From: Candidatus Competibacter sp.
GTDB lineage: Bacteria; Pseudomonadota; Gammaproteobacteria; Competibacterales; Competibacteraceae
Direction: 5' to 3'
Length of the DNA stretch: 56,141 bases
Assembly (NCBI GenBank): GCA_029624815.1
Contig: JARSSH010000055.1
Span: 1-56,141 of the forward strand
Position numbers and translations under genes: made by a program. Position 1 is the first letter of the stretch, and every line of letters begins with the position of its first letter. A model generated the notes under the pieces. That model saw only the letters and a list, made by a program, of their open reading frames with translations, had not been told where the DNA came from and made no database searches. Of the stretch, positions 1,697 through 56,141 are shown one piece after another.

Positions 1697-2578
1697 TCAG
1701 GTGGCGCCCGCCGGCAGATAATCCAGCAGCAGCCCGCAGAAAATCGCCAGCCCGAACCCGTTGTTGTTGAGAAACGCCTTGAAGCATTCGGCCGGTTCGC
1801 GGTTGCGGATCAGGTATTGCTGGTACAGGGCGAACCACGTCGCCGCGAACAGCCCCAGATAATAGATCCAGCCGCGCCCGGCCAGCAGGCCCACCATGAC
1901 CAGCACCCCCAGCAGCGCCAGTTGCAAGTAGCCGACAATGCGTTTGTCCCGCTCGCCGAACAGGATGGCGGTTGATTTCACCCCAATCCGGCGGTCGTCT
2001 TCCCGATCCACCATGGCGTACTGGGTATCGTAGACCGCCGACCAGAGCACGTTGCCGAGGAACAGCAGCCAGGCTGTCGGCGGCAGGCTGTCGGTCACCG
2101 CCGCGTAAGCCATCGGAATGGCCCAGCCGAAGGCCGCGCCGAGATGGAACTGCGGCAGGAAATGCAGCCGTTTCATGAACGGATAGCTGACGGCCAGCGC
2201 CAGGCCGACGAAGGACAGCTTGACGGTCAGCGCGTTCTGGGTGAGCACCAGGGCGAAGGCCAGCAGGCTCAGCACGGCGGCGAGAACCAGCGCTTCGCCC
2301 GGTTTGACCCGGCCAGCGGCCAGTGGCCGGTCGCGGGTGCGGGCGACATGCGGGTCGAAATCGCGGTCGGCGAAGTCGTTGACGACGCAACCGGCCGAGC
2401 GCATCAGCACCACGCCCAGCACGAAAACGAGCACGACGCCGCGTGGCGGTTGGCCATCGCCCGCCAGCCACAGCGCCCACAGGGTCGGCCATAACAGCAA
2501 ATAAATGCCAATGGGGCGGTGCAGGCGCATCAGCAGGGCGTATTCGCGTAGGCGGTCTTCAAGGCGTTCGATCGTCAT
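1697..2578 (-). CDS. ubiA: 4-hydroxybenzoate polyprenyltransferase
   Basis: A 293-aa membrane prenyltransferase that attaches the polyprenyl tail to 4-hydroxybenzoate in ubiquinone synthesis. The first Asp-rich motif NDFADRDFD (about residues 65-75) and the second, [12 protein letters not shown], bind the Mg-diphosphate. Seven or more hydrophobic helices are visible. I chose the ATG at 2578 because it overlaps the ubiC stop (ATGA) and matches family N-termini; an upstream start would only add 22 unrelated residues. It is translationally coupled to ubiC. Confidence 0.95.
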
Positions 2579-42359: not shown

Positions 42360-42449
42360 GCGTGTGGATTGAACGTGGCGGCCGGGACGGCGACACTTGG
42401 GAACATCATGCGATGAATGATGCGGTTGGTTTACCGAAGGATTTTGCGG

Positions 42450-43673
42450 ATGGCGTTTCACTCGAACTGGCCCGACTACTGGCATCGTTTGCGCGATGCC
42501 TTGTTGCACCCCCGCGTCGATGATGAGGCGCTGGACGCGGCCTTGCGCGAGGCGCGGGCGCGGCAACCGTTGCCGGTGCTGTGGCTGATCGGCAAGGCGC
42601 AAGCTGGCAAAACCTCGATCGTCCGCGCCCTGACCGGCAGCGAGACCGCCGAAATCGGCAACGGTTTCCAGCCCTGCACCCGCACCGCCCGTTTCTACGA
42701 TTTTCCCGCCGAAGCGCCGGTGCTGCGCTTTCTCGATACCCGCGGGCTGGGCGAAGTCGCCTACGATCCGGCCGAGGACATTCGCTACTGCGAGTCGCAA
42801 GCTCATCTGCTGCTCGGAGCGATCAAAGCGACCGATATCCGTCAGGACGCGGTGTTCGAGGTGCTGCGCCAGGTCCGCAAGCGCCATCCCGAATGGCCGG
42901 TGCTCGTTGCCCAGACCGGCTTGCACGAAGCCTATCCGCCCGGTGGCGAACATATCCTGCCCTATCCCTATGATCGGCAACCGTGGCCGCCGCAGGCGCC
43001 CCACGATCTGACTCGCGCCCTGCGCACGCAGCGCGACCGATTGGGAGAGTTGCCCGGCGTGGCGCCGGTGCGCTGGGTTCCGGTCGATCTGACCCTGCCC
43101 GAGGATGGTTACGAACCGGCAAACTACGGCCTGGAGGCCTTGTGGAGCGCCATCGAGGCAGTTTCAGCCCTGGGTTTGCAAGCGATGCTGCGGGGCGATG
43201 CCGGTGTCCGCGATGTCTACGAACGCGCCGCCCACCCTCATATCGTCGGCCATGCGCTGGCGGCGGCCGGCGTCGGTGCGTTGCCGCTGGTGGATCTGGT
43301 CGGCGTGCCGGCGGTGCAGGCCAAGTTGTTGCACGGTCTGGCCGCGCTGTATGGACAGATTTGGGATCGGCGAGCGGTTTCCGAGTTTTTCGGCCTGCTG
43401 GGCGTGGGCATTGGCGCATCCTATGTCGCGCGGCTGTTGGGCCGGGAAGTAGTGAAATTGATTCCTGGATGGGGGCAAACGGTCGGGGCGATGTGGGGCG
43501 CGACCGCCAGCGGCGCGACCACCTACGCACTCGGCAAGGCGGCCGGTTATTACTTTGCCATCCGGCGGCAACACCGTTTGGTGGACGCCGAGATGCTGCG
43601 CCGGGTTTACGCCGAGGCGCTGGCCAGCGGTGCGAATCTTTTCAAGAAGTCGCCGGGGGAAGATCAGTCGTGA
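42450..43673 (+). CDS. Era/dynamin-like GTPase with DUF697-type membrane region
   Basis: A 407-aa GTPase. P-loop GKAQAGKTS at residues 48-56, G3 DTRGLG, and a C-terminal hydrophobic part (HALAAAGVGALPLVDLVGVPA, FGLLGVGIGASYVARLLG) like the DUF697/YcjF-type membrane region. ATG at 42450 follows GAAGGA. The G4 NKxD motif is not obvious; VAQTGLHE stands in its place. It overlaps the next GTPase gene (GTGA). Function unknown; such pairs are linked to envelope or stress functions. Confidence 0.82.
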   Translation: MAFHSNWPDYWHRLRDALLHPRVDDEALDAALREARARQPLPVLWLIGKAQAGKTSIVRALTGSETAEIGNGFQPCTRTARFYDFPAEAPVLRFLDTRGLGEVAYDPAEDIRYCESQAHLLLGAIKATDIRQDAVFEVLRQVRKRHPEWPVLVAQTGLHEAYPPGGEHILPYPYDRQPWPPQAPHDLTRALRTQRDRLGELPGVAPVRWVPVDLTLPEDGYEPANYGLEALWSAIEAVSALGLQAMLRGDAGVRDVYERAAHPHIVGHALAAAGVGALPLVDLVGVPAVQAKLLHGLAALYGQIWDRRAVSEFFGLLGVGIGASYVARLLGREVVKLIPGWGQTVGAMWGATASGATTYALGKAAGYYFAIRRQHRLVDAEMLRRVYAEALASGANLFKKSPGEDQS

Positions 43674-45214
43674 AAACCCTGTTCAACCGGTTTGATCGCC
43701 TGCGCGTGCTGGCGCTGTTGCTGTGGGCGCTGCCGGTCGTCGCGCTGGTTCCGCTGGGGTTGTTTTGGTTGTGGCGGGCAGAGGCTTTGCCGTGGTGGCT
43801 GCTGGCCATGGTGTTGTGCAGTGCCGCCGGTTACGGTTTACAAGTCTGGCTGTTGCGTCGGGATCGTCGCCTGCTGGCCGGCGCCGCGACGGCCCCCGAT
43901 CCGCGCTGGCCGCCCAAAGCGGACGGGGCCTGGGCGGTGGTGGAACAATTGGCGGAAACCGTGAAACCGGAAGACTGGCCGTTGAACGATGGCGGCCGGC
44001 TGTGGAGCTTGGGCCAGACTACGTTGGATGCCGTCGCCCGCTACTACCACCCGGAGGAAGAACGGCCGTTGCTGGAACTGACCGTTCCACATACCTTGTC
44101 GATCGTTGAGCGGGCCAGCCGCGACCTCCGCGCCACCGTCACCGATCGCATTCCACTCAGCCACCAGTTGAAGATCGGCGATCTGCTCCACGCCTGGCGC
44201 TGGAAGGATACCGCCGAGCGGTTGATGAACCTCTATCGCGCCGGTCGGCTGGTCGTCAATCCACTGGATGCCCTGTTGAGCGAGGCTGGGGGTCGCTTGC
44301 GTGGTCAGGCGTATGGTCAGGCATGGACGGAGATTCGGCGCTGGTTGTTGCGGGAATATGTCCGCAAGGTTGGCTATTACGCGGTTGCGTTGTACAGCGG
44401 GCGGCTGACCCTGACCGAGGGCGACCCGGACGCCAAGCCGACGCCCGTCTCCCGCGCCGATTTGGCCAGGGTCGCCGAAGAGACCATCGGAACGGGCGAG
44501 CCCTTGCGCATCGTGGTGCTGGGTCGGACCAACGCCGGCAAGTCCAGCCTGATCAATGCGCTCTTCGGCCGCTTGACCGCCGCCACCGATGCGCTGCCGG
44601 ACACGACGATGGGATTGCGGCCCTATCGATTGGAGCGTGAAGGACTGACCGCCGCGCTGATTTTCGACACGCCGGGATGCGATACCGAATGGCTGGGTGA
44701 AAAAGCCTTGCGGAAAGCGGCGATGGAGTCCGATCTCATTCTATGGGTGTGCGCCGCCCATCGTCCCGACCGCCACTTGGACCGGTTGCGCCTGGATGCT
44801 GTGCGCGCCGGATTCGCCGAACGCCCGGATCGCCGCCCGCCGCCCGTGCTGGTCGCGGTCAGCCATATCGACCAGTTGCGCCCGCCGCGCGAATGGCAAC
44901 CGCCCTACGATCTGCTGAATCCCCAGGGAAGCAAGGCGACGAATATCCGCGCGGCGGTGGAGGCGGTAGCGGGGGATTTGGCGGTTCCGGTGGAGACCGT
45001 CATTCCCGTCTGCCTGGCGGAAGATCGGACGTACAACGTGGACGACGCCTTATGGGCGGCGATGCTCGACCAGCGGGATGGAGCGATCAAGGCGCGGTTT
45101 CTGCGCTGTCTGGACCGGCGGATACGGGAAGAAAACTGGACGCTGCTGCGTCGGCAGTTGGCGAACGCCGGACGGTTGTTGCTGAAGTGGCCGGGACGAG
45201 CGGCGAATGAGTGA
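43670..45214 (+). CDS. Membrane-anchored GTPase (YfjP/Era-like)
   Basis: A 514-aa protein with two N-terminal helices (about residues 12-60) and a GTPase domain in the second half. The P-loop is VVLGRTNAGKSSLIN (about 281-295); DALPDTTMGLRPY is the switch region, DTPG is G3, and VSHIDQLRPP is a variant of G4 (NKxD as SHID). The GTG start overlaps the stop of the preceding gene, so the two are coupled. Its own stop overlaps the start of the lasso-B2-like gene by 8 nt. Confidence 0.82.
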   Translation: MKTLFNRFDRLRVLALLLWALPVVALVPLGLFWLWRAEALPWWLLAMVLCSAAGYGLQVWLLRRDRRLLAGAATAPDPRWPPKADGAWAVVEQLAETVKPEDWPLNDGGRLWSLGQTTLDAVARYYHPEEERPLLELTVPHTLSIVERASRDLRATVTDRIPLSHQLKIGDLLHAWRWKDTAERLMNLYRAGRLVVNPLDALLSEAGGRLRGQAYGQAWTEIRRWLLREYVRKVGYYAVALYSGRLTLTEGDPDAKPTPVSRADLARVAEETIGTGEPLRIVVLGRTNAGKSSLINALFGRLTAATDALPDTTMGLRPYRLEREGLTAALIFDTPGCDTEWLGEKALRKAAMESDLILWVCAAHRPDRHLDRLRLDAVRAGFAERPDRRPPPVLVAVSHIDQLRPPREWQPPYDLLNPQGSKATNIRAAVEAVAGDLAVPVETVIPVCLAEDRTYNVDDALWAAMLDQRDGAIKARFLRCLDRRIREENWTLLRRQLANAGRLLLKWPGRAANE

Positions 45215-45683
45215 GGGTGCGATGCGTATTTGCGGGTCTCGATTGCGGCGGCATGGCTTGATCGTCTGGCGGCTGTCGTGGGCCGAGCGCGGGCGGCTGA
45301 TGCAAGCGTGGTTCATGTTGCATGGCGTTGCGCTGGCCTTGCGCTGGGCGGGCTTTCAGCGTGTGTACAGGTTCCTGGAGCGCGGGATCGGGACAATCGC
45401 TCCAACCGTCGGCGATGAAATGCAGCGTGCGGATCAAGCCTGTGTTTTGGCTCGTTTGGTACAGGGCGCGGCGGTGTGGAGCCTGCACGCTCCCACCTGC
45501 CTGCATCGCTCGCTGACGCTGTGGTGGCTGCTGGGGCGTCAGGGCATCGCCAGTGAATTGCGGATTGGGGTGCGCAAGGAGCAGGGACGGTTCGAGGCGC
45601 ATGCCTGGGTGGAGCGCGAAGGGGTGGCGTTGAACGGTGAGTTGGATGTAGGTTCGCGCTTTGCGGCTTTTCGGGGTCTTTGA
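45207..45683 (+). CDS. Lasso-peptide-B2-like transglutaminase-fold protein
   Basis: A 158-aa protein of the microcin J25 McjB C-terminal/lasso B2 type. The papain-like triad residues Cys98 (HAPTCLHRSL) and His132 (FEAHAWVE) are in place; the acid is probably Asp147 or a nearby polar residue. In lasso pathways B2 cleaves the leader. It begins inside the GTPase gene end. No lasso cyclase (asparagine-synthetase-like) gene is in the window. Two PqqD-type and other peptide-tailoring genes follow within 7 kb, which suggests a role in the same pathway. Confidence 0.8.
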   Translation: MSEGAMRICGSRLRRHGLIVWRLSWAERGRLMQAWFMLHGVALALRWAGFQRVYRFLERGIGTIAPTVGDEMQRADQACVLARLVQGAAVWSLHAPTCLHRSLTLWWLLGRQGIASELRIGVRKEQGRFEAHAWVEREGVALNGELDVGSRFAAFRGL

Positions 45684-45750
45684 CCGTTTGCACAAAATCC
45701 GCAACCGAATTGGCTTATTCTCGAACAGATGAATTCAGGAGAACGCCGCG

Positions 45751-46188
45751 ATGACAACCGTTGTTCACCACGACCACGATTTCTACTCGTGGGCCATGCA
45801 TAACGCCCAGTTGCTGCGGGAAGGCCGATGGGCGGAAATCGATTGCGAGTACGTCGCCGAGGAACTGGAAGACATGGGCGCGACTAAAGAGCGAGAGCTG
45901 GAGAGCCGATTGGGCGTGTTGATGGCGCATTTGCTGAAGTGGATTTTCCAGCCGGAACGGCGCGGCAATAGCTGGATTGCCACCATCAAGGAGCAGCGGC
46001 AGCGGATCGCGCGCCTTTTGAGGAAAAATCCGGGACTGAAATCCTGCCTGAATGAAGCGTTCGTGGATGCCTATGCGGATGCGCGCCTGATCGCCGTCCG
46101 CGAAACCAATTTGCCGGAACCGACCTTTCCGGAAACCGCGTCGTTCTCACTGGAACAGGTTTTGGATGATGGGTATTGGCCTGGGTAG
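45751..46188 (+). CDS. DUF29 family protein
   Basis: A 145-aa protein with the DUF29 pattern DFYSWAMHNAQLLREGRWAEID, then YVAEELEDMGATKERELESRL, WQP-like WIFQPERRGNSW and LPEPTFPETASFSLEQVLDDGYWP. DUF29 proteins are common in cyanobacteria and some proteobacteria, often in many copies. Function is unknown. ATG at 45751 follows CAGGAGAACG. It may be unrelated to the peptide system on either side. Confidence 0.88.
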   Translation: MTTVVHHDHDFYSWAMHNAQLLREGRWAEIDCEYVAEELEDMGATKERELESRLGVLMAHLLKWIFQPERRGNSWIATIKEQRQRIARLLRKNPGLKSCLNEAFVDAYADARLIAVRETNLPEPTFPETASFSLEQVLDDGYWPG

Positions 46189-46222
46189 GAAGGGACGCGC
46201 CTGCGTTTCAATGACTGTTCCC

Positions 46223-46244
46223 GCCGCGCGATCGATCGCGCGGC
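46223..46244. repeat. 22-bp perfect palindrome
   Basis: A perfect inverted repeat centred on GCGATCGATCGC with GCCGC/GCGGC flanks, without loop bases. It is followed by ATTTTCC. It lies in the 261-bp gap between DUF29 and the Uma2 gene, where I see no gene. It could be a weak terminator or a protein-binding site. Confidence 0.7.
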
Positions 46245-46449
46245 ATTTTCCCTGGACGCAAGCGGCTTGAGGGGATGTTTTCGAACTGAGCCGATTCATT
46301 ACCGTCTCGATTATCCAAGGCGGTTCGAGGATTTGGCGCATGTCCGGGAGGCCATCGTGGAACACGCACGCCATGAGGGCGATGGCGTATGATTTCCCGG
46401 AGGTACGACCATGTGTGGGTAGTGTGTGGTAAGTTGGGGAGAGGTTGAC

Positions 46450-47049
46450 ATGACGAATCTGGCCGTCCAAACCGCTTTCGGTGTCGAAGCTTATCTTGCC
46501 TGGGAAGAGCGGCAAGAAGAAAAGCATGAGTTTATCGCCGGTGAAGTGTTCGCCATGGCGGGCGCGCGACGCGAGCATGTAGTGGTGTCCCTAAACCTAG
46601 CCGCCGCTTTCAAGCAACGGTTGCGCGGCGGACCCTGTCAGGCCTATGTCGCGGATTTGAAATTGCGGGTGGAAGCGGCGGATGCCTTTTTCTACCCGGA
46701 TGTGGTGGTGTCGTGCGATCCGCGCGATCACGCGGCGAGTCAGTTCATTGCCCATCCGACCTTGATCGTGGAGGTGTTGTCGGAGTCCACCGCCGCCTTC
46801 GACCGGGGCAACAAGTTCGCGGCTTACCGCACGCTGCCGTCCTTACGGGAGTATGTGTTGGTGGATATCGAAGCGCGCCGCGTGGAAACATTCCGGCGCA
46901 CTCCGGAAAACGACTGGTTGTTTCACGAATCTCTTCCGGGTTGCGGGGAATGCGTGTTTCCGGCCTTGAACATTTCGATCCCGTTTGAAGAGATCTTTGA
47001 AAACCTGGTTCCCCAGGCGGCAGGGAATGACGCTTCCGCAACCGAATGA
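46450..47049 (+). CDS. Uma2 family (DUF820) restriction-like endonuclease-fold protein
   Basis: A 199-aa PD-(D/E)XK-fold protein. Family motifs: EEKHEFIAGEVFAMAGARREH, then YPDVVVSC (catalytic Asp), PTLIVEVLSESTAAFDRGNKF (catalytic Glu-Val) and Y.LVD...RRVE. Many genomes carry numerous copies; the role is unresolved. ATG at 46450 follows GGAGAGG. The first PqqD gene starts 3 bp downstream, so it may share a transcript with the peptide system by position alone. Confidence 0.9.
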   Translation: MTNLAVQTAFGVEAYLAWEERQEEKHEFIAGEVFAMAGARREHVVVSLNLAAAFKQRLRGGPCQAYVADLKLRVEAADAFFYPDVVVSCDPRDHAASQFIAHPTLIVEVLSESTAAFDRGNKFAAYRTLPSLREYVLVDIEARRVETFRRTPENDWLFHESLPGCGECVFPALNISIPFEEIFENLVPQAAGNDASATE

Positions 47050-47052
47050 TGG

Positions 47053-47355
47053 ATGGCAACCACAGTGGAAAGCCGCTCGATGTTGACCCGCGACGCGCGT
47101 TTGCAAATTCCCGAGCAGGTAGTCACTCGCCAGGTCGGCGATGAGACCGTCCTCCTCAATCTCGAATCCGGAATCTACTTTGGTCTCGATCCGGTGGGCA
47201 GCCGCTTTCTCGAACTGCTCGAAGCGGAAGGCACGCTGGCGGCGGTCCTTGCCAAGATGTTGGAGGAGTTCGACGTGACCGAAACCCAACTGGAGGCCGA
47301 TCTCCTGCGGCTTGCGGACGAGATGCTCGCCAGCGGTTTGCTCGAAGCGGCCTAA
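47053..47355 (+). CDS. PqqD-family peptide chaperone (first copy)
   Basis: A 100-aa winged-helix protein of the PqqD/RiPP recognition element type. The typical pattern is PEQVVTRQVGDETVLLNLESGIYFGLDPVGSRFLELL, then a helical half ending in LLRLADEMLASGLLEA. PqqD proteins bind leader peptides and hand them to modifying enzymes; lasso B1 proteins are the same fold. It begins directly after the Uma2 gene and is 50 bp before the nucleotidyltransferase. Confidence 0.88.
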   Translation: MATTVESRSMLTRDARLQIPEQVVTRQVGDETVLLNLESGIYFGLDPVGSRFLELLEAEGTLAAVLAKMLEEFDVTETQLEADLLRLADEMLASGLLEAA

Positions 47356-47405
47356 CGGTCGGGAATCGGCGCGTGGTTCGCCCGCATCGCCACGAGGAGA
47401 TTGGG

Positions 47406-48659
47406 TTGGAAATAACGACTTGCGCAACCCTGCTGGACTGCTTGCACCGGGATGAACATCGGCTCGATCCGGCTGCTTTGTCGGTTTTGACCGACGAGGG
47501 ATGGACAGCCCTGATCGAGATGGCGACCCGGCACGGCGTGGCGCCTCTGCTGTATCGGCGCTTGAAGGCGCCCCCACTGGCCGGGTGTGTGCCGGATGGC
47601 GTTCGGAAGCGACTGCGCGGTTTGTATCTCAATACCGCGGCGTGCAATATGCGTCTTTACGAAGAACTGCGACCGCTGTTGTTGGCGCTGCGCGCGGCCG
47701 GAATTCCGGTGGTCGTATTAAAGGGCGCGTATTTGGCCGAGCAGGTTTATCGCAATATCGCCCTGCGGCCGATGGGCGATATCGATCTGCTGGTTCCCGC
47801 AAGCCAGGCGCGGGAGGCGTGGCGGGTGGTGAAGGAACTGGGCTATCGGTTGCTTTATCCCGCGACCGAGACCCTGATTCCATCGTTCGGCAAGGACTTC
47901 GTTTGCCGGAAGCCGGGTGGCTTCGCGCCGGTGGAAATACATTGGACGATCAGGATCGCCGGGATCTCCGACAAAAAGGACGGCATGGATGACAAGGAAC
48001 TGTGGCAAAACGCCCGGACGATCCGCATCGCCGAGATCGACGCCATGACACTGTCGATTGAGGATTTTCTGCTGCATCTTTGCCTGCATGCGTCCTACCA
48101 GCACGAATTCGCTTTCGGATTGCGAGGGTTGTGCGACATCGCGATTTTCATCGAACGGTTCGAGCCGGAGATCGATTGGTCGGCGTTGCGCGCGCGGGTT
48201 TCGCGCCATCGCTGGTGCAAGGGCGTCTATTTGATCCTTTATCTGGCCAGCGTCCGAATGGGCGCCGCCGTGCCGGAGGAAGTTCTGTCCGCGCTGAAGC
48301 CAGTCGATCCGCCGGCCGGGGTGATCGAACAGGTCGAACGGCGGCTGTTCGGCGCGGGCGCGGAGACGATGGCGATGACCTCGAACACAATCGACTTTTT
48401 CAAGCCGGGACGGCTTGGCGATTGGGCGAGGGTGCTGTGGCGGCGCTTGTTCCCCAGCCGGGAAGAAATGACCTATATGTATCCGATTCCCCCAGGATCA
48501 TGGGTGCTGTATGGGTATTATCTGGTGCGAATAAGGGACTTGATGCGACGCCATGGGGCGGTGGCATGGCGTCTGCTGCGCGGCGACCGGGAACTGACCG
48601 AAACCGTGCGCCGACGCGCCGCGCTGCGGGAGTGGTTGTTTAAAGCGGATGCCCAGTAG
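47406..48659 (+). CDS. Nucleotidyltransferase family protein
   Basis: A roughly 417-aa protein of the large nucleotidyltransferase family often found with PqqD and HPr-kinase-like genes. The catalytic pattern is VVLKGAYLAEQVYRNIALRPMGDIDLLV, where D-I-D binds metal; later VEIHWTIR and IEDFLLHLCLHASYQHEFAFGLRGLCDI are family marks. TTG at 47406 with GAGGAG 6 nt upstream is preferred; GTG 47373 has no site. In the paeninodin lasso cluster a homologue accompanies a kinase. Its substrate here is unknown. Confidence 0.85.
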   Translation: MEITTCATLLDCLHRDEHRLDPAALSVLTDEGWTALIEMATRHGVAPLLYRRLKAPPLAGCVPDGVRKRLRGLYLNTAACNMRLYEELRPLLLALRAAGIPVVVLKGAYLAEQVYRNIALRPMGDIDLLVPASQAREAWRVVKELGYRLLYPATETLIPSFGKDFVCRKPGGFAPVEIHWTIRIAGISDKKDGMDDKELWQNARTIRIAEIDAMTLSIEDFLLHLCLHASYQHEFAFGLRGLCDIAIFIERFEPEIDWSALRARVSRHRWCKGVYLILYLASVRMGAAVPEEVLSALKPVDPPAGVIEQVERRLFGAGAETMAMTSNTIDFFKPGRLGDWARVLWRRLFPSREEMTYMYPIPPGSWVLYGYYLVRIRDLMRRHGAVAWRLLRGDRELTETVRRRAALREWLFKADAQ

Positions 48660-48691
48660 CGGCGGCGAATGCAGTCTCGGCGACTGAAGGC

Positions 48692-50545
48692 ATGTCGAAT
48701 CGTACCGCCTATTTGACCGAGCGGTTCCGCAAGGCGCTGGCGCAGTTGCCTCATCTGCCGTGGGCGCTGGGACTGATCTGGCGCGCGACCCGCGGTTGGA
48801 CGCTGGCTTGGGCGGTGCTGATGGTGGCGCAGGGCTTGCTGCCCGTCGCGGTGGTGCTGCTGACCCGCACTCTGGTGGATAGCCTGGTCGCCACGGTGCA
48901 AGCGCCGGGAGACGGGCCGGCGCTGCGGCAAAGCCTGGTTTGGGTGGCGCTGATGGCGGGATTGCTGTTGCTTACGGAGGGCTTGCGCAGTATTTCCGCC
49001 TGGGTGCGCACCGCTCAGGCCGAGTGGTTGCGCGATGATCTCGATGATCGGATTCATGCTCAAGCCGCCCATTTGGACCTGAGCTATTACGAAACCCCCG
49101 AATACTACGATCAGTTGCACCGGGCGCGGGTGGACGCGCGCGACCGTCCGCGGGCGCTGCTGGAAAACATTGGCAACCTGACCCAGAACGGCCTAACCTT
49201 GCTGGCGATGGCCGGCATATTGTGGGGGTACGCGCCCTGGCTGCCGCTGGTATTGATCGGCGGCGCGCTGCCGGCGTTGTGGGTGGCGGCGCGCACCATC
49301 ATGCGCTTTCATCGATGGCGGGTTCGCAATACCGGCCACGAACGCCGCGCGAACTATTACGATTGGATGCTGACCTGGGACCGGGCGGCGGCGGAACTGC
49401 GTCTGTTCGACCTCGGCGACTCGTTTCGGACCGCCTACCGCGCCGTGCGGGCCAGACTGCGCGGCGAGCGCTTGCAACTCGCCCGCCAGCAGATGTGGGC
49501 CGAATTGGGTGCGGACGCCGCCGCATTGCTGGCGATGGGGTTGACCATCGCCTGGATGGTCGGACGGCTGATGCAAGGTTTGGCCAGCCTGGGCGATCTG
49601 GCGTTGTTCTATCAGGTCTTCAGCCAAGGGCAAAAATTGTTGCGCACCGCGCTGGGCAGCGTCGGCGAGATGTACAGCAACCTCCTGTTTCTAGGTAATC
49701 TTTACGAATTCCTGGCCTTGCGTCCTCTGATCGCGGAGCCGCGAGATCCCTCGTCCCCGCCGTCGGATGCGCCGGGCACGATCCGCTTGGAAAAGGTGAG
49801 TTTCCGCTATCCCGGCAGCCAGCGCTTGGCGTTGGACAGCTTCGATCTTACCCTCCCCGCCGGCCAGATCGTGGCCATCGTCGGTGAGAACGGCGCGGGC
49901 AAGAGCACGCTGCTCAAGCTGCTGTGCCGTTTGTACGACCCGGAGGCGGGCCGGGTCAGTTGGGATGGGATCGACCTGCGCGAACTGGCGCTGGCCGACT
50001 GGCGCCGACGGATCACGGTGCTGTTTCAGGAGCCGGTCCATTATCATGACACCGTCGCCTACAACATCGCCTGTGGCGATCTGGCGGTCGCGTCGGATGA
50101 GGCGGCCATGGTCGCCGCTGCCGAGGCCGCCGGAGCCGAGAAGTCGATCCAGCGCTTGCCCCACGGCTATGAGACGGTGTTGGGCAAATGGTTCGGCGGC
50201 GCGGAGCTGAGCGTGGGCGAATGGCAGCGGCTGGCGCTGGCGCGGGCTTTTCTGCGGCGATCCGCGCTGCTGATTCTGGACGAGCCGACCAGCGCCATGG
50301 ATTCCTGGGCGGAAGCCGACTGGCTGGCGCGGTTTCGCGATCTGGCCGCCGGCCGCACCGCCCTGGTGATTACCCACCGCTTCACCACCGCCCTGCACGC
50401 CGACGTCATCCATGTCATGGGGCAGGGCCGCATTCTCGAATCCGGCGGTCACGCCGAATTGCTGGCGCGAGGCGGGCGCTACGCCCAGTCGTGGACGCAA
50501 CAACTGCGGGAGACCGGGAAAGGTCGGATGGAGGGCGCATCGTGA
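48692..50545 (+). CDS. ABC transporter, fused permease/ATPase (peptide exporter type)
   Basis: A 617-aa half transporter with five or six N-terminal helices (residues 30-310) and an ATPase. Walker A is VGENGAGKSTLLK (about 396-404), the signature is the unusual ELSVGEWQRLALARA (LSGGQ replaced by LSVGE), and Walker B is LLILDEPTSAMD (about 525). No C39 peptidase domain is at the N-terminus, so leader cleavage must be done elsewhere. It is within the peptide operon and probably exports the product. Confidence 0.92.
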   Translation: MSNRTAYLTERFRKALAQLPHLPWALGLIWRATRGWTLAWAVLMVAQGLLPVAVVLLTRTLVDSLVATVQAPGDGPALRQSLVWVALMAGLLLLTEGLRSISAWVRTAQAEWLRDDLDDRIHAQAAHLDLSYYETPEYYDQLHRARVDARDRPRALLENIGNLTQNGLTLLAMAGILWGYAPWLPLVLIGGALPALWVAARTIMRFHRWRVRNTGHERRANYYDWMLTWDRAAAELRLFDLGDSFRTAYRAVRARLRGERLQLARQQMWAELGADAAALLAMGLTIAWMVGRLMQGLASLGDLALFYQVFSQGQKLLRTALGSVGEMYSNLLFLGNLYEFLALRPLIAEPRDPSSPPSDAPGTIRLEKVSFRYPGSQRLALDSFDLTLPAGQIVAIVGENGAGKSTLLKLLCRLYDPEAGRVSWDGIDLRELALADWRRRITVLFQEPVHYHDTVAYNIACGDLAVASDEAAMVAAAEAAGAEKSIQRLPHGYETVLGKWFGGAELSVGEWQRLALARAFLRRSALLILDEPTSAMDSWAEADWLARFRDLAAGRTALVITHRFTTALHADVIHVMGQGRILESGGHAELLARGGRYAQSWTQQLRETGKGRMEGAS

Positions 50546-50721
50546 AGGCGGACAGGTGGTTTCGTGATCTGGCTGTACGATATACATCCGCTGGTACAGG
50601 CCATGACCGTCGGAGAGTGCGGAAGTTTATCGAACTCGCGGATGTCAATCGCTGGCTACCGCCGTGGCTGTACGTGCGCCGGGTCGTGGCGGACGTCTGG
50701 AAATTTTTCAAAGATTCTTAG
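50542..50721 (+). CDS. Small unknown protein between ABC exporter and S24-like gene
   Basis: A GTG at 50542 overlaps the ABC stop (GTGA) and opens 59 codons that fill the whole gap to the next gene. The product is basic, with an aromatic C-terminal half (NRWLPPWLYVRRVVADVWKFF). I recognise no family. The coupling and exact fit argue that it is translated. It could be a membrane-bound accessory or a second peptide substrate; it has no Cys and no obvious core. Confidence 0.5.
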   Translation: MKADRWFRDLAVRYTSAGTGHDRRRVRKFIELADVNRWLPPWLYVRRVVADVWKFFKDS

Positions 50722-50733
50722 GGGGTTGTATTG

Positions 50734-51156
50734 ATGGCGTTTGTTTCCACCCGTATCGTTCGCGGGCTGCGCGAACTGGCGGTCGAGTCGCCGGTGAGCT
50801 TGCGGGTCAGCGGTGAGTGTATGGTGCCCCTGCTTGCGAACGGGGCGATGATCCAGGTGGTTCGCCAGCGGTTTTACTGGCCCGGTGATCTAATGGTCGT
50901 CCATGCGCCGGATGGTCGCTTGCTGGTTCACCGGCTGTTGGGCTGTTATTCCAAGGGGCGGGGATGGCGCTGGTTGACTCAGGCCGATAATGCCCGCTGG
51001 CCTGATGCCGCCTTGCCTACGGAACGGATCATCGGCAAAGTATGCGGTGGGGACTGCTCCGAGTGGCTGGTTCGGGTGCCGCTTGCCCACCGGGTGAAGG
51101 CTGTGCTCCGTTTCTTCCGGTTCGTTTTGATCCACATGAGAATCTTGTGCCGATGA
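50734..51156 (+). CDS. S24/S26 peptidase-like protein with altered dyad
   Basis: A 140-aa protein of the signal peptidase/LexA fold. The region SGECMVPLLANGAMIQV corresponds to the nucleophile box (normally G-x-SM-x-P): Cys29 stands where Ser is expected. RFYWPGDLMVVHAPDGRLLVHRLLG corresponds to the Lys box, with His66 in place of Lys. Activity could be thiol-based or lost. ATG at 50734 follows TTAGGGGG. Its stop overlaps the HprK-like start (ATGA). Confidence 0.78.
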   Translation: MAFVSTRIVRGLRELAVESPVSLRVSGECMVPLLANGAMIQVVRQRFYWPGDLMVVHAPDGRLLVHRLLGCYSKGRGWRWLTQADNARWPDAALPTERIIGKVCGGDCSEWLVRVPLAHRVKAVLRFFRFVLIHMRILCR

Positions 51157-52082
51157 GTTTTGGCGAGAGTTTCCTGAACTATCCCGACTTGTTCCCAGCC
51201 CGGTCTAGCGGCGAGCCATGGGGGGACGAACAGGTAATGATCCGCTTTGCGGGCAATGTCTATGCTTGGGTGGGTCTAAGCGCAATCCAAGCGACTGCGG
51301 CGCGCCAACGGTTCGGCGAATTGTGTTTGCCGCCAGACGAGGAATCGCCAGCGGCGGTGGAGATCCAGGTTTTCCGCGCGACGGCCGATGATTTTTTTGA
51401 TAACGGGCGAGTCTGGTCGTTCGAACTCGATTTGGACTACGCGCCGGACGCAGTGAGCATCGCCGGCTTTCATTTCATGGCTCGACTAGACTGGATGCCT
51501 GGGTTGCGGGCGGCGCTGTGGACATCGGAAGACAGTCGGCTGGTGTCTCATTCTATTTTTGAAAACTTTTTCCGGGTCGTCGTCGCCTACCATCTATTCG
51601 AACAGGGCGGTGTGTTGCTGCATAGCAGCGCGGCGGTGGTAAACGGTGACGACGCCTATGTGTTCTTTGGACCATCTGGGGCGGGCAAGTCCACGATTTC
51701 GTACTTGAGTTTCGCCGCCGGCCACGCGGTTTTGAGCGATGACATGAACGCCCTACGGGTGACGTCAGCCGCCGTGATGGTGGAAAAATTGCCCTTCGCG
51801 GGCGATTTCGGCCAGACGGTGGGCGGGGCCGATGGGTTCTATCCAGTACGTGCGCTGTGCCGCCTGGAAAAAGGGCCAGACCCCACATTGCAGATCCTGC
51901 GGCCCGCTGCGGCCGTCGCTGCCTTGCTTGGCTGCGCGCCGTTTATCAATCGCAATCCTTATCGTCGCGATCAATTGTTCGATCAACTGCAAGTTTTGAA
52001 CGCCAGGTTGCCGGTTCGGACGCTGACCTTTGCGCGGGATGACCGATTTTGGGCTTTGCTGCGGAGTGGAGAAAATTCATGA
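51153..52082 (+). CDS. HPr-kinase-like protein (HprK/PadeK type)
   Basis: A 309-aa protein. The N-terminal half is variable; the C-terminal half is the HprK fold with VLLHSSAAVV, P-loop FFGPSGAGKST (residues 173-181), VLSDDMNALR (metal/catalytic Asp) and FPYP-like PVRALCRLEKG. Homologues in lasso clusters phosphorylate the peptide's C-terminal Ser; others sit in exosortase loci. The precursor candidate in this locus ends in serines (SNSS). It is coupled at both ends by ATGA overlaps. Confidence 0.82.
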   Translation: MSFGESFLNYPDLFPARSSGEPWGDEQVMIRFAGNVYAWVGLSAIQATAARQRFGELCLPPDEESPAAVEIQVFRATADDFFDNGRVWSFELDLDYAPDAVSIAGFHFMARLDWMPGLRAALWTSEDSRLVSHSIFENFFRVVVAYHLFEQGGVLLHSSAAVVNGDDAYVFFGPSGAGKSTISYLSFAAGHAVLSDDMNALRVTSAAVMVEKLPFAGDFGQTVGGADGFYPVRALCRLEKGPDPTLQILRPAAAVAALLGCAPFINRNPYRRDQLFDQLQVLNARLPVRTLTFARDDRFWALLRSGENS

Positions 52083-52360
52083 TAGAAGCGAACGTGATAT
52101 TGAAGCGATGTGCCGATACCCGTTACCGCAATATCGGGGATGAGGGGGTCGTGGTCCGGCAGACAGTGGGCGAGGTGCTGGTGCTGAACGAGATCGGAAT
52201 TCGGGTACTGGAATTGTTGGAGGCAGCCGTTTCGGTGAGCGGTCTGCTGGACGCGCTGGATGCCGAATATGATATCGACCGGGTTACCCTGGAACGGGAC
52301 GTGTTGGCTTACCTGCAGGAGTTGGTGGACGCGGGAGTGATTGAGCAGGTCGCCGCTTAG
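52079..52360 (+). CDS. PqqD-family peptide chaperone (second copy)
   Basis: A 93-aa PqqD-type protein: KRCADTRYRNIGDEGVVVRQ, EVLVLNEIGIRVLELLEAAV, and a helical end DVLAYLQELVDAGVIEQV. Its start overlaps the kinase stop (ATGA) and it is 70 bp before the radical SAM gene. It is the likely leader-binding partner of that enzyme. Distinct from the first copy (few identical residues beyond the family pattern). Confidence 0.88.
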   Translation: MIEANVILKRCADTRYRNIGDEGVVVRQTVGEVLVLNEIGIRVLELLEAAVSVSGLLDALDAEYDIDRVTLERDVLAYLQELVDAGVIEQVAA

Positions 52361-52430
52361 CGCGTGCTGCGCCACTCTTCCACCTAAGGGAGAAGAACAC
52401 CCCCCTTTAACCCACTGCGAGGCCCCTCCC

Positions 52431-53468
52431 ATGGCGTTTACCGATACGCTTCAGCGCACTTGGCGGGAAAACATTCTGTTTTCGGTGTTGGTCGAGTTGA
52501 CCTACCGTTGCAATCTGAATTGTTTCTTTTGCTACAACGATCCTCATCTTCGGGGCGTTCCGCTTGGTACGAAACAATATATCCGTTTTTTCGAGGACTT
52601 GCGTGCACTCGGCACTTTGAGTCTGACGTTTTCCGGCGGCGAACCACTTGCGCGCGCTGACTTCTTCACATTGGGCCGTCAAGCGCGTGATTTGGGCTTC
52701 ATGGTGCGGGTGAAATCCAACGGTCATGCCCTGAATGACCGGTTGGCGCGGCGGTTGCTAAGGGAAGTGGACCCCTTCATCGTCGAAGTCAGCCTGCATG
52801 GCGCCCACCCAGAAACTCACGACCGCCAAACTCGGGTACCGGGCAGTTTTGGGAAACTATTGGCCAACCTGCGCGAAATGCGGGCACTAGGCTTGAGGAT
52901 CAAGCTGAATAGTCCGCTGACCGCTTGGAACGAATCAGAGATAGAAGCAATGTTCGCACTGGCGGACGATTGGGGTTTGCCGATCCAATTCGATACGCAG
53001 ATCACGCCGCGCGACGATGGGGATTTTGGCCCGTTACAGATTGCACCGTCCCACGCGGGTGTGGCACGACTATTCGCGCTTCAGCGGCAGCGGGCTACCA
53101 CGCACCGGATTGATCAGGAACCGCGCCCGGCGGACGCCACCGCCGAGACCATCGGCGCCAAGCATTGCGGAGCCGGTTCCGCCACGGTGACCATCGATCC
53201 CTTCGGCAATGTCTATCCGTGTGTGCAGTGGCGGCGGCGGGTGGGCAATCTGCATGAGCAGTCCATTCAAACCATTTGGCGACATTCCGGGGCGTTGGCC
53301 GAGGTCCGCCGGCTGGCGGTGGAGGTCAAGCAGGGGATTCGCCAGCATGGCACGCCGGGGTTTGGGTTTTGCCCCGGTTTGGCGGAGCAGGAAACCGGCG
53401 ATCCCGCCAATCTCTATTCCGCTGCCCGACGGTTGCTGGAACTGCGCCAGCGAGCTTCAGTAAGCTAG
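52431..53468 (+). CDS. Radical SAM enzyme with SPASM-like C-terminus
   Basis: A 345-aa enzyme with the [4Fe-4S]-SAM motif CNLNCFFC (Cys27, 31, 34), the GGEP motif in LSLTFSGGEPLARAD and VEVSLHGAHPETHD on the barrel. The C-terminal cysteines Cys246, Cys264 (DPFGNVYPC) and Cys314 (FGFCPGL) resemble a reduced SPASM auxiliary-cluster site. PqqE/AlbA-type enzymes of this form modify ribosomal peptides. ATG at 52431 has GAGG upstream. It follows PqqD directly and faces the precursor candidate. Confidence 0.9.
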   Translation: MAFTDTLQRTWRENILFSVLVELTYRCNLNCFFCYNDPHLRGVPLGTKQYIRFFEDLRALGTLSLTFSGGEPLARADFFTLGRQARDLGFMVRVKSNGHALNDRLARRLLREVDPFIVEVSLHGAHPETHDRQTRVPGSFGKLLANLREMRALGLRIKLNSPLTAWNESEIEAMFALADDWGLPIQFDTQITPRDDGDFGPLQIAPSHAGVARLFALQRQRATTHRIDQEPRPADATAETIGAKHCGAGSATVTIDPFGNVYPCVQWRRRVGNLHEQSIQTIWRHSGALAEVRRLAVEVKQGIRQHGTPGFGFCPGLAEQETGDPANLYSAARRLLELRQRASVS

Positions 53469-53475
53469 AAAAACC

Positions 53476-53497
53476 GCGCCCGCCGGGAGGCGGGCGC
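53476..53497 (-). terminator. Terminator of the precursor-peptide transcript
   Basis: GCGCCCGCC (53476-53484) pairs perfectly with GGCGGGCGC (53489-53497) around a 4-nt loop. On the - strand GGTTTTTCTAG follows, so it terminates the - strand transcript. It has no T-run on the + side but may also slow radical SAM transcription. Confidence 0.85.
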
Positions 53498-53513
53498 TCA
53501 ACAAATTTAAAAG

Positions 53514-53702
53514 TTAGGACGAATTAGAGGTACAAGGAAGGCCGCTTTTGCCAGGTGGTGATGGCGAACAGACCCCCGCCATTGCTTCCAGCGGCGCCCG
53601 CGAGAGAATCTGTGGCCGTTGATATGCTTTTCTAATTCTTCCATCTGGCGGTTGCGCAGTCTGGCACATTGGATCTTTAGAAGTGGATTCGTCAACAATC
53701 AT
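53514..53702 (-). CDS. Putative RiPP precursor peptide (62 aa)
   Basis: ATG at 53702 with TAAGGAATACCCA upstream, 10 bp after the C25 protease stop. The product has an acidic start (MIVDESTSKDPM), a middle segment KAYQRPQILSRAPLEAMAGVC and a tail SPSPPGKSGLPCTSNSS with two Cys. A leader-like helix followed by a Cys/Pro/Ser/Gly core is typical of ribosomal precursor peptides. From memory, small proteins with ILSREPLE-like segments before a Cys/Gly tail occur beside PqqD and radical SAM genes; I could not verify this. An upstream in-frame start at 53861 would run through the protease gene and is unlikely. Confidence 0.7.
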   Translation of the reverse strand: MIVDESTSKDPMCQTAQPPDGRIRKAYQRPQILSRAPLEAMAGVCSPSPPGKSGLPCTSNSS

Positions 53703-53712
53703 TGGGTATTCC

Positions 53713-56141
53713 TTACGGATGAATATGCAGGGCTGGATCGCCAAACACTTGGTAAATATCCAGCATATAACGCTGACCGCCCTTTCTGGCCAAGTTAGTG
53801 AGGGCAGCGTTGGTCGCATCTCCCAAGGTAGAGTTTGCGCCGCCGCTGAACAGCGCATCAACGATGCTCAGGTTCAGGATATGTGCTTGGTCATTATCGG
53901 ACATCCCCACGGGGGCCAAGGCGGCGACGATGCCTCCATCTTGTTGCCACAATAAAGTCTCGGCTAGGGAATCAAACCCCGGAAAGCTACCATTACCCAT
54001 GTAGCAGGTTAATCCCAAGAATAAAGGCAACTGGCTGCTGTTGGTAAGTTGACTGACGTCACTGATGCGCAGCAGTCCTTCGTGGGCAAGCTGAGTGACT
54101 GCGGCGTGGCCAACGTAATTGATTATCCCCACGCCGGCGTTGACGTCATCGATGATCCTTTGGCGCGTTGTGTCGGCCGGTGTCCCACTTTGGTAATAGA
54201 TCAGTTTGGTCGCAACCTTCTTAGCGCGAAGCGATCGCGCCACCGCGTCGCTGTTAGCAGCGAAATCGCCGGCGCTGTCGGGGTTATCAGCCACCAGTAG
54301 CGCCGTGGCGGAAGAGCGGCCGCTTTCGTAGGTTTGCAGCTTGGCGACATATTGCGTCACGTCATCGGCCGTCAATGCGGGAATCCGACCGATGGCGAGT
54401 TCTGGCACGCCGTTGTTGTCGAGATCGGCGTAGCGGCTGTCGGTGGCGAACAGACCGTCTGGTGTTACCGTCATCAGTACCGGGAACAGATTGGTGCCAA
54501 GGTGTTGGTAGTCTTTCGGGTCGATGGTGCCCTTGCCTACCAGCACTACATAGCGCGGCTTCGGTTGCCAGCTGCGATAGGCGTAGCTTAGAAAGTCACG
54601 GATGGCGTTGGGGTTGACGATGCCATTGTTGAACGTGTCGTAGATGTCTTGCAACTCTACCACCTTGCCGCCACGATGGGTCGCCAAGGTATCGGCACCG
54701 GTTCGCAGGGAACTAGGCGCGAGTACCAGGTAATTGGTTCCGCTGTTCTGGGTTTTCAGGGTGGGTGCGGCGGTGCCGTCCACCGACACAGGAGTTGCCG
54801 CGATGGCGGCGATATAGTCGTCGGCACGCGTGGCCGGAATGAAGCTAACCATTCCACCGGCTAATGGGATGGTGGTGGCCGCCAGCCACTGCGGTTTGCG
54901 CGGGTCGCTGATATTTAGCACCGCGATATTGGAGCCGCTGAAACCGTCGACCGTGACCACGAAGTTGCCCGCGCCGCGCAGCCGCAATTGATTATCGACT
55001 GCCTGGTAGGCGCGCGGGTAATCGAGGTCGAAGCCGTTTACCGCGAATGTGCTCAAGGATATGTTCGGGTCGAGGGCGCCGCTCACCGTTACCGTATTAT
55101 TACCATCGACAAGCAAAGATGCATCGAAGGTGGTGGTCAATACATAGGGCGTGATGCCTTCCCACACGGCGTCACCGACCTCCACACCGTTGACCAACAC
55201 ATGTGCATGATGGTGGTGGCCGGTAACCAGATCAGTTCCCCCTTGCAGGTAGGCGCGGAGCGTCGCGGTGCCCGCCACCGCTCCTGGCGTGGGTACCGCG
55301 AACGTCGGAGTATAGCCACCCGCCACGACATAATCCCAGTACCAGAAGTCGGCATCGGGATCGGTGATCAAATACGGGAACGCGTAGCGGTTTTCTTCCA
55401 CATGGATGCTGGACTGGAAGGGCTGCATGCTGGTGGTCGGAATTGGCGCCTTTCCTTTTAACACGTTCATCGTCAGGCCGTTCGCTTGATCCAGCCAGTA
55501 GACGTTGAAGCGGGTGTAGGCGCTATCGGTGCCCTGGAGCGGCTGGCCGTAGAAATACAGTTGATTACCGCTAGGATCCGCCATCCAGGCAACCGACTGG
55601 CCTTTATTCTGAAGACGTAGCTTACCTTGGGCGATCCAGGTCTGTATCTGCCGTGGATCGACGTCTAATGCGGTGGCGATTTGGTTAGCGTCCACGACAT
55701 ACAAGCCTTCCCGCTCAATGCGGATGCGGACCGCCGCCTTGGGCGTTTTCGCCTGAGTTGTGGCTTCCAATCGTCGCATTGCGCGCGATGGAATCGTACG
55801 TCCAGTGGGGACGTGGGCAGCGCGTTCGTAGCCATCAGCGCGTGGAGTGGCTTCGGCTGCGGCGAGCGATTGCGCCTGTTCGGTGCGGGCGAGTTGCTTG
55901 CCAACGCCGGCAGTAACGGTGAACGGGCCGTAGCTGCGGATGGCGCCGCGCGCCTCTATTTCTTGCAACCGATAAGTATAGGTTTCGCCCGGCGTCACCG
56001 CCCGATCCGGGTAGCGGTAAACGCCGCCTTGCGGGGCGGTCAGCAACCCCGGCAACAAGTGATCGTTGATCTGGACAAACTCACCGCTGGCCGGATCCTG
56101 GCGCAGTAGGTTGAAGCCAACCGTGCCCATCTCGGAAACCG
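53713..56141 (-). CDS. Gingipain-type C25 cysteine protease, N-terminus outside window
   Basis: At least 805 residues, open to the right edge; the frame continues upstream of the ATG at 56130, so the start lies outside. Order: fibronectin-like segment (GVYRYPDRAVTPGETYTYRLQEIEARG), a long beta-rich region with PGAVAGTATLRAYLQGGTDLVTG and an HHHH cluster, and the C25 protease domain. Catalytic His is in INYVGHAAV (codon at 54106-54108) and Cys in GLTCYMGNG (codon at 54004-54006). No C-terminal sorting domain follows. It is co-directional with and 10 bp upstream of the precursor peptide. Confidence 0.88.
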   Translation of the reverse strand, partial: VSEMGTVGFNLLRQDPASGEFVQINDHLLPGLLTAPQGGVYRYPDRAVTPGETYTYRLQEIEARGAIRSYGPFTVTAGVGKQLARTEQAQSLAAAEATPRADGYERAAHVPTGRTIPSRAMRRLEATTQAKTPKAAVRIRIEREGLYVVDANQIATALDVDPRQIQTWIAQGKLRLQNKGQSVAWMADPSGNQLYFYGQPLQGTDSAYTRFNVYWLDQANGLTMNVLKGKAPIPTTSMQPFQSSIHVEENRYAFPYLITDPDADFWYWDYVVAGGYTPTFAVPTPGAVAGTATLRAYLQGGTDLVTGHHHHAHVLVNGVEVGDAVWEGITPYVLTTTFDASLLVDGNNTVTVSGALDPNISLSTFAVNGFDLDYPRAYQAVDNQLRLRGAGNFVVTVDGFSGSNIAVLNISDPRKPQWLAATTIPLAGGMVSFIPATRADDYIAAIAATPVSVDGTAAPTLKTQNSGTNYLVLAPSSLRTGADTLATHRGGKVVELQDIYDTFNNGIVNPNAIRDFLSYAYRSWQPKPRYVVLVGKGTIDPKDYQHLGTNLFPVLMTVTPDGLFATDSRYADLDNNGVPELAIGRIPALTADDVTQYVAKLQTYESGRSSATALLVADNPDSAGDFAANSDAVARSLRAKKVATKLIYYQSGTPADTTRQRIIDDVNAGVGIINYVGHAAVTQLAHEGLLRISDVSQLTNSSQLPLFLGLTCYMGNGSFPGFDSLAETLLWQQDGGIVAALAPVGMSDNDQAHILNLSIVDALFSGGANSTLGDATNAALTNLARKGGQRYMLDIYQVFGDPALHIHP

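Follow-up and report, generated by a model that had tools for sequence, protein, structure and literature searches.

The 56,141-bp contig JARSSH010000055.1 of a Candidatus Competibacter genome of 3.63 Mb was analyzed over its entire length and is referred to here as the window; no sequence is visible past position 56141. At its right end, from 50.7 to 56.1 kb, lies a recurrent cassette for a ribosomally synthesized and post-translationally modified peptide (RiPP), in which the genes for an S24/S26-type peptidase (S24), an HprK-like kinase (HprK), a PqqD protein (PqqD2), and a radical SAM enzyme on the forward strand converge on a precursor peptide gene and a C25 protease gene on the reverse strand. 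The product of the cassette is probably dedicated to the C25 protease, which is of a secreted type. The components are the following.

50731-51156, + strand: S24/S26 (Sec11-type) peptidase with a Cys nucleophile
51153-52082, + strand: HprK-like kinase with the P-loop GxSxxGKxT and a conserved SD (weak match, HprK_rel_A 21.5 bits against a cut-off of 200)
52079-52360, + strand: PqqD2, the discrete RiPP recognition element (RRE) of the cassette (PF05402)
52431-53468, + strand: radical SAM/SPASM peptide maturase
53476-53497, - strand: terminator-like hairpin past the C25-precursor unit, nine G-C pairs followed by a T run (z -3.44); the nine terminator-like matches in the region are not above shuffled sequences (mean 10.4), a caveat that also covers the second hairpin listed below
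53514-53702, - strand: precursor peptide of 62 amino acids with the leader YxxPxIL...LExxA and the predicted core GVCSPSPPGKSGLPCTSNSS
53713-56139, - strand: C25 (gingipain/PorU-type) protease, 808 amino acids visible, N-terminus missing (PF01364, 240.3 bits)

The C25 gene is cut at its 5' end because the contig stops at 56141. Its stop codon lies 10 bp ahead of the precursor ATG, which is preceded by AAGGA. A sequence-only reading of the window had listed these genes together with a B2 protein, another PqqD protein, a nucleotidyltransferase (NTP transferase), and an ABC exporter, and all are present about where it placed them. The same reading described stop/start overlaps from the exporter through PqqD2. 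The exporter and a 59-amino-acid open reading frame (ORF), S24 and HprK, and HprK and PqqD2 do overlap by a few bases, but the 59-amino-acid ORF and S24 are about 10 bp apart. The 70-bp gap given ahead of the radical SAM gene is correct.

An alignment of five radical SAM rows was used to examine recurrence of the cassette in one genome per species (84,980 species); 380 stretches were confirmed and the best 80 loci retained. Sixty-three of these 80 loci and the window make up the family (64 loci), and the remaining 17 serve as an outgroup. Loci were chosen on radical SAM similarity alone, not on C25 or precursor, and the gene counts in both sets are lower bounds since many contigs are short. 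Besides the radical SAM gene itself (64/64), the family contains HprK in 58 loci, PqqD in 58, the precursor in 50, C25 in 40, and S24 in 37, with NTP transferase, ABC, and B2 genes in 15, 10, and 4 loci, respectively. The corresponding outgroup counts are 17 for radical SAM, 14 for PqqD, 10 for HprK, nine for NTP transferase, eight for S24, six for ABC, five for the precursor, and one for C25. The S24-HprK-PqqD-radical SAM and precursor-C25 set is found in loci titled Acidobacteria, Gammaproteobacteria, and others. In the first relative (G110), for example, S24-HprK-PqqD-PqqD-radical SAM are encoded on one strand and the precursor and C25 on the opposite one, and an NTP transferase gene is present too. 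The sequence-only reading had proposed asking whether the same set recurs elsewhere with a small Cys-containing peptide, and it does so across the 64 loci and both genome surveys described below. Its view that the window encodes another class of ribosomal peptide, as opposed to a functional lasso cluster, is borne out in that radical SAM, kinase, PqqD, C25, and small Cys-containing peptide recur together.

On visual inspection, the only recurrent neighbors to stand out beyond the core genes were the clusters of NTP transferase and ABC genes; other large neighbor clusters resembled shadow frames of core genes, as judged by eye and not one by one. No relative of the radical SAM enzyme was confirmed in viral contigs. 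A second architecture, in which the precursor gene comes before the C25 gene, was seen in seven loci (L169-L175), all of which have PqqD and radical SAM genes and a precursor gene adjoining the C25 gene. In a radical SAM tree of 83 rows, 62 rows form one clade (support 100/99), and the extra radical SAM enzyme of L088 is the one row from a family locus outside it. The window enzyme groups with L028 (Competibacteraceae) and L027 (labeled Betaproteobacteria) with support of 100/98 and 100/100. These three belong to a group of ten rows (94/94, not starred), and the remaining seven come from Acidobacteriota. Other Competibacteraceae copies (L063 and L086) are placed elsewhere in the tree. As the ten-row group of the window is otherwise Acidobacteriota, the tree suggests that the history of the radical SAM gene includes horizontal transfer.

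Related loci were also seen at a greater distance. In the same genus, L022 (G276:C106, about 520-3010) is a related but different cassette with an HprK-like gene, a radical SAM gene, a PqqD gene, and a 57-amino-acid ORF that has two Cys residues and the motif YSPP in its leader. In Thiocapsa marina 5811 (L075), a 6.7-kb contig carries PqqD and radical SAM genes and a partial HprK match, and neither a precursor nor a C25 gene was seen on it. Four outgroup loci (L095, L099, L100, and L105), from Lentisphaerota, Omnitrophota, Myxococcota, and Elusimicrobiota, have short YxxP precursors, hinting at a far wider family; only L099 shows a C25 gene.

The precursor family, defined by a profile hidden Markov model (HMM), comprises 60 ORFs in 55 loci, and the complete motif is present in 59. 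Its spacing is nearly fixed: counting from Tyr or Trp at position 1, there is Pro at position 4 (58/59), Glu at 10 (53/59), Glu at 13 (59/59), Ala at 16 (59/59), and Cys at 19 (58/59), figures that speak less strongly for position 4, Glu 13, and Ala 16, where conservation is partly built into the counting pattern, than for Cys 19, where it is not. The exception at position 19 is L084, in which the Cys is one residue further on. Three more features lie outside the counting pattern, namely the second Cys, a Lys between the two Cys residues (57/59), and a C-terminal Ser (57/59 versus 8.4% of 689 background ORFs), the last of which is also beyond the 41-position HMM. The predicted cores, taken after Ala 16, are 19-34 residues long; 54 of the 59 contain exactly one Lys, and 49 contain no Arg. 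The second-architecture and survey loci supply 12 more precursor ORFs (L178 duplicates L042), read from the sequence, and all 12 end in Ser and all except L174 have the inter-Cys Lys, which is a weaker test because their search profile includes the C-terminus. No NCBIfam or Pfam family was matched by the 45 precursor rows scanned. A single-query precursor search in the class of the window found only 2 of 274 genomes, and profiles were therefore used instead.

The C25 protein belongs to family C25 by its PF01364 score (gathering score, 23 bits), and it is the only C25 found in the window's genome. The catalytic His and Cys are kept in 41 of 41 C25 proteins. A model of the catalytic part of the window copy (predicted local distance difference test [pLDDT] score, 94.8) has gingipain RgpB as its top fold match in Foldseek, and a C25 profile compared with PDB sequences finds PorU best (3.7e-39), with RgpB at 1.8e-26. 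The cassette C25s resemble gingipains and PorU in fold and in the catalytic His and Cys and differ in having a RiPP precursor gene as their neighbor. Where the start is visible, C25 ORFs are mostly 700-1,800 amino acids long and mostly have hydrophobic, Sec-like N-termini in a simple hydropathy scan (the window copy is cut there), and that of L063 additionally carries GEVED and pectate-lyase-like adhesive domains. The S1 specificity is not readable from the C25 alignment. Two irregular arrangements were observed: L067 (294-12352) has tandem C25-profile ORFs around one cassette, each matching short parts of the profile only, and in L005 (G110:C26, 3679-8108) the C25 gene is spread over two frames, owing to either a frameshift or a misassembly.

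C25 and precursor genes are closely paired. For 37 of the 60 precursors, a C25 ORF precedes on the same strand, with no more than 1 kb between the two stop codons. Conversely, a precursor follows immediately on the same strand for 33 of the 41 catalytic C25 ORFs, the stop codons being 142-382 nucleotides apart; the eight without one are in L030, L060, L047, L097, L053, L037, and L042, and one of the two in L088. L036, L048, and L076 contain two C25 genes and two precursors each, L041 and L049 each have two precursors with a single counted catalytic C25, and L088 has two C25 genes with one precursor. Precursor-C25 gene fusions were looked for and none was convincing; a strong match in a long frame of L047 is a precursor frame overlapping C25 in a different frame. 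Pairing is also apparent at the level of whole genomes. In a survey of 252 genomes from the same class as the window, five contain the precursor, 15 contain PF01364, and five contain both (hypergeometric, 3.7e-7), a result tempered by the fact that four of the five precursor genomes (the window's own, G110=L069, G227=L061, and G186=L058) were already family loci, although these were originally found via radical SAM and not C25. In the only new one, G057, precursor and C25 adjoin. In the phylum to which L033 (titled Acidobacteria) belongs, 247 genomes were surveyed, and the precursor occurs in 43, C25 in 92, and both in 39 (Fisher, 1.3e-15). At least five of the 43 are family genomes (G309=L033, G310=L036, G383, G345, and G545), and the precursor genomes without C25 are G338, G425, G492, and G516. 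Thirty of the 53 precursor places in this survey adjoin a same-strand C25, eight of them lying within 1.5 kb after the C25 domain and 22 within 4 kb before it.

The genes converging on this pair encode a plausible maturation apparatus. The radical SAM enzymes keep the Cys residues of CxxxCxxC in 65/65 rows and three C-terminal Cys residues in 63/63, and the window combines what characterizes a radical SAM RiPP locus of the sactipeptide/ranthipeptide type, namely a radical SAM/SPASM enzyme, an RRE, and a Cys-containing precursor. The closest solved structures are PqqE and SkfB, and entry 5wgg, which we take to be CteB, was also matched; the cassette shares with the PqqE, SkfB, and CteB systems a radical SAM enzyme with a SPASM-type domain and a PqqD partner. 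A defense-system reading was rejected, as PADLOC run on five proteins gave viperin-type matches to the radical SAM enzyme only. The P-loop Gly, Lys, and Thr of the HprK-like kinase are present in 58/58. In the S24 proteins (window 50764-51114), Cys takes the place of the catalytic Ser in 32/37 and Ser is kept in five, His stands in 37/37 where bacterial signal peptidases have their catalytic Lys, and Asp is present in 37/37. The window triad is Cys29/His66/Asp91 (model numbering), with a His-Asp spacing of 25, and the model (pLDDT score, 94.4) matches the human signal peptidase complex first and then LexA-type domains.

The closest known parallel to this apparatus is the linear polyphosphorylated peptides (LPP) of Bacillota. 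According to Popov et al. (2026; PMC13381572), an HprK-like kinase phosphorylates Ser3 of the LPP core, the SpI-like peptidase LppS (S29/H68/D93) cuts the leader after T-1 with the assistance of an RRE, the leader motif is YxxPxVLxHQxIxFET/xxS, and LPP loci often neighbor paeninodin-type lasso clusters. Both systems have a discrete PqqD-type RRE, an HprK-like kinase, an NTP transferase, an archaeal-type signal-peptidase-like leader peptidase, a YxxPx[VI]L leader with the same spacing to the cut site, and a lasso-cluster neighborhood. Aligned by eye and without gaps, Ala 16 of the cassette precursor falls on T-1 and Cys 19 on Ser3, and the His-Asp spacing is 25 in both the LPP S/H/D and the cassette C/H/D triads. 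Since triad, LPP spacing, and model agree, the comparison supports S24 as a candidate Cys-type leader peptidase cutting after Ala 16. The cassette differs in having both a radical SAM/SPASM enzyme and a C25 protease, in its core with two Cys residues, a Lys, and a C-terminal Ser, in the absence of a constant exporter, and in its loci, which are titled Acidobacteria, Gammaproteobacteria, and others, not Bacillota. The window does hold the LPP combination of RRE, HprK-like kinase, and SpI-like peptidase, with NTP transferase and exporter only as remnant or neighbor. Its peptidase, however, matches the Ser-His-Asp triad in His and Asp with Cys for the nucleophile Ser, and where LPP precursors have YxxPxVLxHQxIxFET and Ser3, its precursor, at the same spacing, reads LExxA at the cut site and has Cys as the third core residue. 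The main text of PMC13381572 contains no mention of radical SAM, rSAM, SPASM, C25, or gingipain.

Other systems share single components. In lasso peptides, the paeninodin kinase acts on a C-terminal Ser (PMC8498205), the kinase of another lasso system acts on Ser3 (PMC10368454), and a [Y/W]xxP leader motif is bound by a discrete RRE (PMC13381572). The cassette resembles paeninodin and pseudomycoidin in the HprK-like kinase, here with a C-terminal Ser as its predicted target, the NTP transferase (PMC8498205), and the [Y/W]xxP leader, and it differs in that no lasso cyclase was found for the window and that B2 is irregular in the cassette (4/64). SynChlorMet systems have radical SAM, PqqD, and HprK-related members by their NCBIfam names. 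Their HprK-related member is ScmC. The window proteins score far under the cut-offs of these and other curated maturase models (ScmC, 12.5/125 bits; ScmD, 16.6 and 19.1/100; ScmE, 78.3/400; ScmF, 58.1/400), and the precursor is in no NCBIfam or Pfam model. Because a defining feature of each was looked for and not found, the cassette is not filed as lasso, LPP, or SynChlorMet. No paper on this cassette was among the literature matches listed (12 of 824 in one case), in which subscription journals are mostly not covered. Each component is known by itself; none of the matches listed describes an LPP-like front end together with a radical SAM enzyme and a neighboring C25.

A maturation pathway can be proposed from computed gene-set recurrence, C25-precursor adjacency, genome co-occurrence, and residue conservation, with its chemistry, cleavage, export, and interaction being predicted. 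PqqD2 would bind the YxxPxIL leader, as the motif suggests. The radical SAM/SPASM enzyme would then probably modify the short core, most likely by forming a cross-link, such as a thioether, that involves Cys, the single Lys, or both. HprK might next phosphorylate the core, a step for and against which the case is evenly balanced, with the near-invariant C-terminal Ser as the likeliest site; this site is the less certain because the LPP kinase targets Ser3, which is Cys here, and the paeninodin kinase a C-terminal Ser, which is kept here. Where present, the NTP transferase may add to that phosphate. The S24/S26-like peptidase, as a Cys/His form of LppS, is then rather likely to cut after the leader Ala, leaving a core of 19-34 residues with Cys at position 3. 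Finally, the mature Cys-Lys-Cys...Ser peptide would act on or with the neighboring C25 protease.

What the peptide does there is a more tentative matter. The reading preferred here, which falls a little short of an even case, is that the mature peptide may be a dedicated partner or inhibitor-like ligand of C25, ahead of one in which C25 merely trims the peptide. A partner role is preferred, with a substrate role close behind, because the peptide is paired and co-oriented with C25 and not with the maturation genes in the window and in many loci. A fuller version is doubtful at present. In it, a whole RiPP pathway would make, for one secreted C25, a ligand peptide that is both cross-linked and phosphorylated and serves as inhibitor, sortase acceptor, or latency peptide, with each protease having its own peptide. 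The substrate role would make C25 the final maturation protease, cutting the exported peptide, for example at the single core Lys, and freeing an active product. RgpB and Kgp, which are relatives of C25, cut after Arg or Lys, and the single Lys and the scarcity of Arg in the cores are in keeping with this, as is the conservation of the catalytic His and Cys; adjacency and pairing also fit an enzyme and its substrate. However, S24 is already a candidate leader peptidase, the C25s are large for trimming enzymes and in L063 bear extra domains, and three loci hold two C25 genes and two precursors instead of one C25 for several precursors. Such a maturation role is possible but not probable.

C25 could also be a sortase akin to PorU that uses the single Lys amine or another group of the modified peptide to attach it to other surface molecules, the peptide being an anchor or tag. 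PorU is the best match among PDB sequences, a single Lys is conserved, and the C25s of two relatives, L173 and L033, score 191.2 and 199.5 bits with T9SS_sortase (NF033707), values taken from these relatives and not from the cut-off window copy. These scores are nevertheless under the PorU cut-off of 420, about half of the PorU profile is covered, and Foldseek ranks RgpB first, all of which makes a sortase unlikely.

The sequence-only reading had treated the whole 11 kb from 45.2 to 56.1 kb as a single tailored peptide system, including the lasso-type genes to the left of the cassette. These genes and their neighbors are as follows; DUF29 and Uma2 were not among the genes which that reading named.

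45207-45683, + strand: B2, lasso-type leader peptidase (NF033537, 73.6 bits against a cut-off of 33; PF13471)
45751-46188: DUF29, between B2 and PqqD1
46223-46244, + strand: terminator-like hairpin from a hairpin scan, separating DUF29 from the following genes
46285-46380, + strand: remnant of a deleted HprK-like kinase, its last 32 residues (78% identity to residues 349-380 of 380 in L019)
46450-47049: Uma2, between B2 and PqqD1
47053-47355, + strand: PqqD1 (lasso B1-like)
47373-48659, + strand: NTP_transf_5 nucleotidyltransferase of the lasso-type block (PF14907, 211.8 bits)
48692-50545, + strand: MsbA-like ABC exporter, a lasso-type neighbor
50542-50721, + strand: 59-amino-acid ORF, probable remnant of an NTP transferase C-terminus

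A relative of the same genus (G276) has, with other ORFs interspersed, the order B2-DUF29-Asn-synthase-kinase-Uma2-PqqD1-ABC-S24-HprK-PqqD2-radical SAM, after which its contig ends. The best model for its Asn-synthase protein is the lasso cyclase (223.6 bits, under the cut-off of 525). The window has the B1 (PqqD) and B2 pair of a lasso cluster and lacks the cyclase and kinase of the G276 block, 46285-46380 being the final 32 residues of that kinase only. Since the relative keeps cyclase and kinase where the window has the kinase remnant, the region from 45.2 to 50.5 kb looks like a decayed lasso-type cluster adjoining an intact second cassette. In agreement with the earlier statement that a lasso cyclase is absent, none was found in the window's genome when searched with the cyclase-like protein of the relative; the one match, a 643-amino-acid frame on contig C31 in two pieces (E values, 1.2e-13 and 6.4e-5), is taken for an ordinary asparagine synthase. 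A simple pattern search for a lasso precursor with a YxxP leader gave five matches at 42-51.5 kb, all chance-looking. The 59-amino-acid ORF has 55-58% identity over 19-20 amino acids to the ends of the NTP transferases in L018 and L027 (E values, 0.002-0.003), tblastn places pieces of an NTP transferase at 50552-50695, and the NTP transferase gene lies directly before S24 in L018 and directly before HprK in L027. Two GTPase-domain proteins are encoded immediately upstream of B2 (42417-45214), and in G276, too, B2 is preceded by a frame that ends in the same way.

The idea of one system has in its favor that the genes lie side by side, that the exporter offers a plausible route out, and that in two loci of another phylum, L030 (13455-15316) and L032 (11374-13034), PqqD-B2-HprK-NTP transferase genes are close to the cassette. 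As these two loci pair both sets, a functional link between lasso-type genes and cassette is possible; no lasso cyclase was noticed among the printed ORFs of L030 and L032. In L030 the four genes come after a secreted-looking protein. On the other hand, B2 and ABC are found in only 4 and 10 of the 64 loci, the relative shows a fuller lasso-type block with a cyclase-like gene beside the same cassette, and the kinase remnant and the terminator-like hairpin lie within the stretch in question, so that a single system over the 11 kb is improbable and that claim is not upheld. The ABC exporter may also carry the cassette peptide out. A small ORF that is never modified and regulates or chaperones C25, the radical SAM system having a different substrate, would account for the position of the ORF on the C25 strand, facing the maturation genes, in the window and in many other loci, but this is very improbable given a leader motif that fits PqqD-type recognition elements, a precursor in one run with HprK-PqqD-radical SAM in L063 (=L020), L086 (=L021), L067, and L071, and a precursor between radical SAM and C25 on one strand in the second-architecture loci.

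Several observations weigh against a peptide made by this cassette for C25. No precursor was detected in 14 of the 64 loci and no C25 in 24; contig ends account for some of these missing genes, not all; in L035, L044, L045, L065, and L066, roughly 10 kb or more of sequence flanks the precursor on one side at least and contains no C25. No C25 lies directly upstream within 1 kb of 23 of the 60 precursors, and none was found adjoining on the same contig and strand for 23 of the 53 precursor places in the 247 genomes. L028, the nearest radical SAM relative of the window, has no HprK, PqqD, or S24 in the 10 kb upstream. The second-architecture loci have HprK in 4/7 and S24 in 1/7, and because of this scarcity the kinase and S24 are perhaps not obligatory. 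No dedicated exporter recurs (ABC, 10/64), and the C25s have Sec-type N-termini, whereas the precursor has no visible one.

The cassette adds a widespread peptide-modification system, with the precursor profile found in 43 of 247 genomes in the phylum of L033 and in 5 of 252 in the class of the window. In this system three enzymes, of the radical SAM, HprK-like kinase, and Cys-type signal-peptidase-like kinds, converge on a very small peptide encoded next to a large secreted-type protease. It would extend SpI-like leader peptidases past Bacillota, and the conserved C-terminal Ser offers a testable kinase site. Because the protein partner is encoded beside the peptide, the role of such RiPPs is directly testable. 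If the fuller version of the partner reading is true, these bacteria would control a protease by means of a post-translationally modified micro-peptide that is not a natural product released to the environment.

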